DNA of 64,000 nt, from the NCBI GenBank assembly GCA_016177775.1, contig JACOUQ010000032.1, positions 1 to 64,000 of the forward strand. Direction: 5' to 3'. This stretch comes from Geobacter sp. Its GTDB lineage: Bacteria > Desulfobacterota > Desulfuromonadia > Geobacterales > Geobacteraceae. The position numbers and the translations under genes are program-made. Shown here in pieces: positions 62,510 to 64,000 of this stretch (positions are counted from its first letter, which is position 1; every line of letters begins with the position of its first letter). The notes beneath the pieces were generated by a model. It was not told the origin of the DNA. It saw only the letters and a list, made by a program, of their open reading frames with translations, and did no database searches.

Positions 62510-63166
62510 TCAGATTGCGCAGGTGACGTGCAGGTCGCACCCGTGGCAGCGCTCCCGCTTGCGGCAGTGCTCCTTGCAGTGCCCGACGATCAGGGCATGG
62601 TACTCGTTGAAAAGCCCGACATCCTCCGGCAGGTTCTCCATGAACATCGTGCGGACAGTTTCGTAGTCCGCGTTTTCCGCCACCACCCCGAGCCGCGCGA
62701 AAAGCCGCTTCGTGTAGGCATCCACCACAAAGGTCGGCTTGTTTCCGGCATAGAGCAGGATCGAGTCGCAGGTCTCCCTCCCGATCCCCCGCACCCTTAG
62801 CAGCTCCTCCCGCAGCTCCCGCCAGTCGCCCGAGAACATCCGGTCGAGGCTCCCATCGAACCGCTCGAACAACCACCCCACGAAATCCTTCAGCCGGCTG
62901 CTTTTTACATTGTAATAGCCGGCAGGCCGGATCGCTTCCGCGAGCTTCTCCACCGGCACGTCCCGAAGCGCCTTGGCGGACAGAAGCCCCTCCCGCTTGA
63001 GATTGACAATCGCCTTCTCCACATTCCCCCAGTTTGTGTTCTGGGTAAGGATCGCCCCCACGCAGACCTCGAAGGGGGTCTCGGCCGGCCACCACTGCAT
63101 CGGGCCGTAGCGCCGCGCAAGGATGTCGAATATCTCTAAAAGCTGTTTTTGCAGTTTTTTATTCAT
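62510..63166 (-). CDS. Endonuclease III-like HhH-GPD DNA glycosylase
   Basis: 218 residues. HhH-GPD core: FEVCVGAILTQNTNWGNVEK, then LLRVRGIGRETCDSILLYAG with the catalytic Asp in FVVDAYTKRLF. The Lys used by bifunctional lyases (Nth) is Glu here, so a monofunctional glycosylase is likely. Four cysteines near the C-terminus (CRKRERCHGCDLHVTC) fit a [4Fe-4S] cluster. Role in base excision repair; the lesion specificity is unknown. Confidence 0.9.
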   Translation of the reverse strand: MNKKLQKQLLEIFDILARRYGPMQWWPAETPFEVCVGAILTQNTNWGNVEKAIVNLKREGLLSAKALRDVPVEKLAEAIRPAGYYNVKSSRLKDFVGWLFERFDGSLDRMFSGDWRELREELLRVRGIGRETCDSILLYAGNKPTFVVDAYTKRLFARLGVVAENADYETVRTMFMENLPEDVGLFNEYHALIVGHCKEHCRKRERCHGCDLHVTCAI

Positions 63167-63196
63167 ATGCTAAACCACCATAACAATCTTCCCACA

Positions 63197-63346
63197 GGCG
63201 TCGGCTTGGGGGCTTCCTGAAGCAAATGGCGCGGCTTCATGCAAAATGGATATTCGAGGGAAACCGTCCGAATATGGTATTTACTCAATCCGGGCGCATA
63301 GGGTGACAGATTGCCATTTGCTTCAGGAAGCCCCCAAGCCGACGCC
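63197..63346. mobile_element. 150-bp element with a perfect 34-bp inverted repeat (MITE-like)
   Basis: Bases 63197-63230 (starting GGCGTCGGCTTGGGGG) are the exact reverse complement of 63313-63346. The 82-bp middle carries a nested ATATTCG/CGAATAT pair. No gene fits inside. It could be a non-autonomous transposable element, but neither a target duplication nor a related transposase is seen in the window. Confidence 0.7.
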
Positions 63347-63370
63347 ATACCGCCACTTTCCAAACAACCA

Positions 63371-64000
63371 CTAAATAATCACCCCATGCAAATCCCGCCG
63401 CCGGTACCGCCAGGCAAAGGCTCCGGCCCGGAAGAACCAGTCGAAGAGGAACACACCCCAGACCGCGTAGAGCGACATATGCAGCAACTCGGCCGAGATG
63501 TAGGAGAGAAAAACCCTGATCCCCCACATGGCAAAGAGGGTGACAAGGAATACGTAGAAGGTATCGCCGGTGCCGCGCAGGCTCCCGGCGTAGACAAAGG
63601 AGAGGGCGAGCGGTATCTGGGCGAAGGCCACCAGCCGCAGGAAGACGCTCCCCTTCTCGATGACGTCCGGGTCGTGGGTGAAGAGGGCGATCAGCTGATG
63701 GGGAATGCCCAGGAACAGAAGCGCCATGAACCCCATGACCAGGAGCGCGACGCGCAGCGCCTCCCGGTGGCTCAGGCGGGCACGGCGGATCTTGCGCGCC
63801 CCCAGGGCCTGCCCCATCAGGGCCGCCGCGGCTATCCCCATCCCTGCCCCCGGCATGAACGAGAGGGACTCTATGGAGAGCCCGATCTGGTGGGCCGCAT
63901 AGGCGGCCGTACCGTAGCCGATGATGTACTTGGAGTAGAAGAGCTGCCCAGACTGCTGGGCGATCCGCTCCAGCGCCACCGGGTACCCCACTTGCCACAC
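63371..64000 (-). CDS. MATE-family efflux transporter, C-terminal half (N-terminus outside window)
   Basis: 209 residues visible, ending in a TAG stop at 63371. About six membrane spans. MATE repeat-2 features: GYPVALERIAQQSGQLFYSK, GIAAAALMGQALGARK, FLGIPHQLIALFTHDPDVI and YAGSLRGTGDTFYVFLVTL. It exports cationic drugs or metabolites by sodium or proton exchange. The start lies beyond position 64000; the first visible codon is internal. Confidence 0.88.
   Translation of the reverse strand: MWQVGYPVALERIAQQSGQLFYSKYIIGYGTAAYAAHQIGLSIESLSFMPGAGMGIAAAALMGQALGARKIRRARLSHREALRVALLVMGFMALLFLGIPHQLIALFTHDPDVIEKGSVFLRLVAFAQIPLALSFVYAGSLRGTGDTFYVFLVTLFAMWGIRVFLSYISAELLHMSLYAVWGVFLFDWFFRAGAFAWRYRRRDLHGVII

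Follow-up and report, generated by a model that had tools for sequence, protein, structure and literature searches.

Is a long, perfectly paired palindrome in intergenic DNA a miniature transposable element (MITE), a recombination site or a structured RNA? The question is raised by a 150-bp element at positions 63197-63346 of the window, the 64,000-nt stretch of a Geobacter sp. contig analyzed here, for which an initial annotation from the letters alone had offered all three guesses. An inverted-repeat search returned exactly the coordinates given there: two arms of 34 bp (63197-63230 and 63313-63346), 100% complementary and separated by an 82-base spacer. As had been claimed, such a match is far beyond chance, the probability of a perfect 34-bp match being negligible by simple arithmetic (~64000 x 200 x 4^-34), and the predicted RNA fold of 63190-63352 (163 nt) reaches -94.6 kcal/mol, while shuffled sequences average -51.0 (sd 4.3; z -10.2). 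The absence of a gene inside the element also held up, with no credible candidate within 63197-63346 and merely mechanical open reading frames (ORFs) crossing it. The element lies upstream of the start of a HhH-GPD base-excision DNA repair gene (endonuclease III-like; 62510-63166, - strand) and 24 bp from the stop of a MatE family transporter gene (63371-64000, continuing past the window; - strand). No promoter-like site was found at this copy and no terminator-like site inside it. An intrinsic terminator was rejected, as no T-run was seen here.

The source assembly (G000; 3.4 Mb in 37 contigs) holds many more such hairpins. Using blastn, we found six full copies (75-100% identity) plus partial ones, and a covariance model built from these six (R1) detected seven copies of the same family (A; one more than blastn) together with four hairpins of a second family (B). 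The stem sequences of family B are unlike those of family A, while the internal motifs GCCTTTGAGCA (5' side) and GGTGACACATTA (3' side) are common to both. Because R1 gave scores of 65-75 bits to the opposite strand of the palindromes as well, family B was accepted by its motifs and not by its score. The search for further copies that had been suggested thus yielded 11 full copies and four half copies (C21:136669, C24:37205, C26:41372 and C31:147914). All 11 full copies are intergenic, with mixed orientation to their neighbors (by greedy ORF calling), and they are scattered between housekeeping genes with no gene context common to them. This distribution argues against an ordinary structured RNA, be it a gene or a cis-acting element (sRNA, leader or terminator), that was duplicated by chance and is immobile in its own lineage.

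Several observations concern individual copies. The half copies at G000:C21:136688 (L029, ~1501) and G000:C26:41379 (L030, ~1501) abut a different hairpin repeat, CCCTCTCCCTGAGGGAGAGGG..., which resembles the CCYTC-based class 4 sites as PMC2700814 describes them. One full copy (L052:1450-1700; G000:C31:19899) has a further 12-bp inverted repeat, AAAAAGCAAAGA/TCTTTGCTTTTT, on the outside of its stem, with a T-run at the end. In two genera, a copy lies just on the upstream side of a thrC-like gene (named by eye) (L045:1501-1651, G000:C21:20641; L116, G011:C27:110029), both oriented opposite to the gene, which may reflect a hotspot or coincidence.

We refer to the structure that these copies share as the hairpin core. 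The window copy, of family A, spans the whole core (63197-63346, + strand; match G000:C14:63197-63346:+ at 122 bits to R3, a covariance model built from 30 diverse copies in alignment A7). We define the element strand as the one with GGTGAC on its 3' side, which folds with G-U pairs and here is the + strand. On it, the 34-nt 5' arm, whose pairs covary across copies, is followed by the 5' internal motif GCGGCTTCATGCA (63231-63243), conserved across families as (G/A)CGGCTTNANTGCA. An inner hairpin, ATATTCG...CGAATAT around AGGGAAACCGTC (63250-63275), is predicted by the RNAalifold consensus of six family A copies, and the 3' internal motif GGGTGACAGATT (63301-63312; family consensus GGTGACNNATT) precedes the 34-nt 3' arm, the perfect complement of the first.

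The perfection of the arms had been read as an indication of recent origin, a reading that the sister copies do not support. These copies have nearly perfect stems that differ in sequence, and matched changes in both arms, among them a matched 1-nt deletion, set the window copy apart from them. Since the sisters keep pairing with different arm sequences and the arms of the window copy changed in step, arm perfection does not date the element. Across the 11 copies of the source genome, 96.0% of stem cells are paired, 26 of the 30 pairs show double changes, and the covariation score is 0.696, compared to 0.229 in shuffled alignments and at most 0.151 in slid registers, with zero shuffles reaching the observed values. 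The 30 diverse copies of A7 give the same picture, with double changes in 28 of 29 stem pairs (216 cells vs 64.4 shuffled) and a score of 0.756 (0.243 shuffled; slid controls at most 0.225). Judged from these alignments, the two halves of the stem have been evolving in step for a long time.

The stems also carry a strand-specific signature. On the element strand, G.T stem cells exceed A.C cells in each of seven copy groups (6:0, 4:1, 46:3, 14:2, 8:2, 6:3 and 159:11), and the seven family consensuses contain 24 G.T and 0 A.C, although several consensuses share wobble pairs by descent, so that independent events are fewer than 24. In addition, folding is more favorable for the element strand than for its complement in 37 of 39 cores. 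Orientation was set by motif in families A, B and those of g12, and by model score, which leans the same way, in the most distant cores. A preference for G·U over A·C mismatches on one strand points to selection on one folded strand, and the many G·U pairs suggest that the folded form is most likely, and most simply, RNA. Single-stranded DNA also tolerates G.T better than A.C, so the asymmetry does not prove RNA. Strand specificity and covariation would be equally expected of a hairpin whose folded strand acts as DNA in replication or transposition, recognized in the manner of HUH or integron attC systems. The asymmetry does bear on a plain MITE, that is, an inverted repeat recognized by a transposase, with arms kept alike through binding of the same transposase or through template-switch correction and a hairpin that has no role. 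Neither end recognition nor arm correction distinguishes between the strands; both predict equal numbers of G.T and A.C mismatches, in conflict with the consensuses. The conservation of interior motifs between families with differing arm sequences likewise speaks against it. In a relative with many copies (G011), the private one-sided changes look unselected, with 15 columns of G.T type and 13 of A.C type in our own count by column.

Copies at fixed sites add a second line of evidence. In genus g10 (four genomes sampled), copies share flanks between species, and a core lies just behind uvrB in four of four genomes (L063, L192, L065 and L078; UvrB confirmed). Over five ortholog pairs, identical columns amount to 335/363 in the stem, 350/410 in the loop and 243/421 in adjacent noncoding DNA, that is, 92% identity in the stem compared to 58% in the adjacent noncoding DNA, with gaps counted as differences and the extent of the noncoding control set by visual inspection of reading frames. 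Between the two species pairs, the outer stem of the uvrB-site copy has diverged with pairing kept. Conservation well above that of the adjacent noncoding DNA is a further point against a plain MITE, which is strained by this result together with the wobble asymmetry. Fixed loci such as the uvrB 3' end do fit an ordinary structured RNA. The initial annotation had held that a single-copy conserved structure with compensatory changes would favor an RNA gene over a mobile element; the hairpin core has the compensatory changes and, in g10, orthologous conservation, yet it is anything but single-copy. As a separate observation, a family B copy of the source genome (L055:1501-1649; G000:C17:87238) lies upstream of a uvrB-like gene (named by eye), whereas the g10 core lies behind uvrB.

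The clearest signs of mobility come from G011, which holds at least 40 core copies, the best ~90% identical. There the core sits in a ~210-bp element with terminal repeats; the alignment of the copies extends to the ends GTTTCCATCCGGAAA...TTTCCGGATGGAAAC (terminal inverted repeat, TIR, GTTTCCATCCGGAAA), and a second, different interior uses the same GTTTCCATCCGGAAA...TTTCCGGATGGAAAC ends. We compared the flanking 6-mers of 45 facing end pairs, counting repeated places once and keeping some ends with up to four mismatches. The flanks match at five or six of six positions in 20/45 pairs, compared to 6.5% of 1980 mismatched pairs, and exactly in 10/45 pairs, compared to 1.3%. The target duplication is 6 bp and reads TANNTA. 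Terminal repeats and 6-bp target duplications in G011 imply that the core can be mobile. Looking for target-site duplication, as had been proposed, thus succeeded in this relative by comparison of flanks; in the source genome, a 6-mer is common to 74 of 110 mismatched flank pairs, so that no duplication could be shown there. For the same reason, we discounted the AACCAC common to both flanks of the window copy.

These G011 features carry different weight for the alternatives. Terminal repeats and TANNTA duplications favor a plain MITE, as do the inconsistent orientation to genes and the stem changes within G011, most of which are unpaired: one-sided changes number 67 on the left and 43 on the right, compared to 15 paired double changes (4.4 expected), which indicates that most individual G011 copies drift. 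A chimeric copy, L116:1220-1560 (G011:C27), in which the complement of the right end takes the place of the left end and outer arm, ahead of a normal left arm, is also in its favor, since the end swap looks like an arm exchange, as if the arms had recombined. Weighing these points against the wobble asymmetry and the g10 orthologs, we regard a plain MITE as unlikely. The abundance in G011, with at least 40 copies nearly identical to one another and target duplications around them, is also hard to reconcile with an ordinary structured RNA, which, with the terminator-like T-run and any Rfam match absent as well, we consider the least probable of the alternatives. HUH and attC systems are not known to make 6-bp target duplications, so that those of the G011 copies count against a single-stranded DNA hairpin, in spite of the small palindrome GTTTCCATCCGGAAAC at the G011 element ends. 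In the chimeric copy L116, another palindromic repeat, GCTTGTTCGTAAATAA..., is inserted. The GTTTCCATCCGGAAAC ends also frame further noncoding repeats whose interiors differ (L166, L168 and L172 in G011), and several small, unrelated elements thus appear to be moved by one transposition system. Elsewhere, L195:760-1200 (G031:C340) contains two direct-tandem copies with a common CTAACTACCTAG junction, an arrangement suggestive of either one copy inserting into its neighbor's target duplication or a duplication event.

The enzyme behind this mobility was sought in several ways. The initial annotation had suggested looking for an insertion sequence with the same ends, and none came to light: no autonomous element was found as a facing pair 0.8-4 kb apart among the 100 listed of the 107 TIR places in G011, and no pairs of the G011 TIR were found in the source genome, the assemblies being fragmented in both cases. 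Between two cores 2.5 kb apart in another relative (G014), considered as the ends of an autonomous element, no transposase was recognized by eye among the ORFs, and plasmid sequences searched with the G014 core gave zero matches. We also rejected mobilization by RAYT (Y1) transposases. The source genome has eight Y1 genes, none of which has a core nearby (0/8), and G014 combines five cores with 0 Y1 genes. Overall, a core lies within reach of 1 of 33 Y1 loci; this and the G014 count also weigh against a single-stranded DNA hairpin, to which we give somewhat less credence than to a plain MITE.

The hairpin core has a narrow distribution. With the same blastn query, 96 other genomes gave zero matches. 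R2, a covariance model from the 11 source-genome copies, matched 15 of 147 relatives at E<=0.001, and R3 at E<=1e-5 matched 18 of the 277 genomes searched in the class (15 in the own family, Geobacteraceae, and three in a sister family of the same order) and 3 of 395 genomes phylum-wide, all in the own family, with the own phylum as the space searched. Each of these counts includes the source genome, and R3 was built partly from copies in the searched genomes, which match by construction; its informative part is the absence elsewhere. Within the genomes searched, the hairpin core is confined to Geobacteraceae and one sister family of the same order. A DNA-pattern search returned 29 stretches, 26 of them in the Geobacteraceae MAG D180_maxbin.001 and one each in another Geobacteraceae MAG, a Deltaproteobacteria MAG and Paenibacillus, and an exact-pattern scan with the family A arm gave 0 matches in both GTDB and viral contigs, collections from which the own genome is possibly absent. 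A known Rfam RNA was ruled out, as the window stretch and 12 loci had 0 matches at the gathering score. Relaxing the threshold to E up to 10 brought up three unrelated matches, all outside cores, and this search lent no support to a further lead, kinship of the GGGAAAGCGCCTGAA motif with group II introns. No description of the hairpin core was found in the literature searched, a comparison outside which the supplementary sequences of PMC2700814 lie. Based on these Rfam and literature negatives, without those supplementary sequences, the hairpin core appears previously undescribed.

Being short, noncoding and multi-copy with inverted terminal repeats, the family has these features in common with bacterial MITEs. 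The arms of Correia/NEMIS and ERIC-type elements are conserved in sequence, whereas those of the hairpin core are replaced with pairing kept, and the duplication in G011 is 6 bp, TANNTA. The likenesses are that these elements are described as 100-200 bp long, noncoding, intergenic and non-autonomous, with long stem-loop transcripts; a further difference is the TA at their termini (PMC2229807). REP/REPIN sequences with RAYT are similar in their paired inverted modules, dispersed with many per genome, as presented in PMC3733652, but GTAG/CGTC-tagged short palindromes were not recognized as units in the hairpin core. The multicopy sequences of Geobacter metallireducens, compared by description only, likewise form many intergenic families, one set having inverted-repeat ends (PMC2700814). 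The closest published object is the MRSC-65-2 motif as described in PMC11109978: a single long covarying stem with many copies per genome and inconsistent orientation, read there as a selfish element. Judged by that description only, the TCCCGG that the hairpin-core majority consensus has in its 5' arm is similar to the UYCCGG repeat of MRSC-65-2; UYCCGG is absent from the window copy. MRSC-65-2 is reported with over 20,000 copies in diverse phyla, in contrast to the two families of one order found here within the own phylum, and the portion of that account compared here gives no strand test, target duplication or ortholog analysis of the kind made for the hairpin core (PMC11109978).

The guesses of the initial annotation are thus not exclusive: the spread of the copies and the terminal repeats and duplications of relatives fit a MITE, while covariation, strand-specific wobble and orthologs favor RNA. 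We give a probability of roughly 55% to the following reading: the element is a mobile repeat of the non-autonomous kind, and its core is a nucleic acid that folds in a strand-specific way, most likely as an RNA stem-loop formed on read-through transcription. The core would be selected as a folded form on one strand and mobilized in some lineages. Its stem-loop, probably RNA rather than single-stranded DNA, would form when the site is transcribed through, and a transposase acting in trans may have moved the source-genome copies too. By analogy with NEMIS and ERIC repeats (PMC2229807), the transcribed stem could alter how stable neighboring transcripts are or how they are processed, for instance by serving as a substrate of RNase III.

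A bolder extension, which we offer tentatively, is that the hairpin core represents an undescribed class of folded RNA with two lives. At fixed sites in g10, such as the uvrB 3' end, it would be under selection, while in sister genera transposon ends would have captured or flanked the core, which would then have been multiplied to dozens of copies. Stem sequence would be free to vary provided that the arms still pair, and a partner would bind at the conserved internal loop, CGGCTTNANTGCA / GGTGACNNATT. Repeats with long hairpins tend to be classed as dead MITEs. Whether such a fold is used can be tested directly in this family, since the core occurs both as a recently amplified transposon-like repeat with target duplications and as a compensated orthologous structure at fixed sites, and the count of G.U vs A.C provides a simple strand-specific readout that may be applied to other bacterial repeat families whose RNA or DNA status is open.
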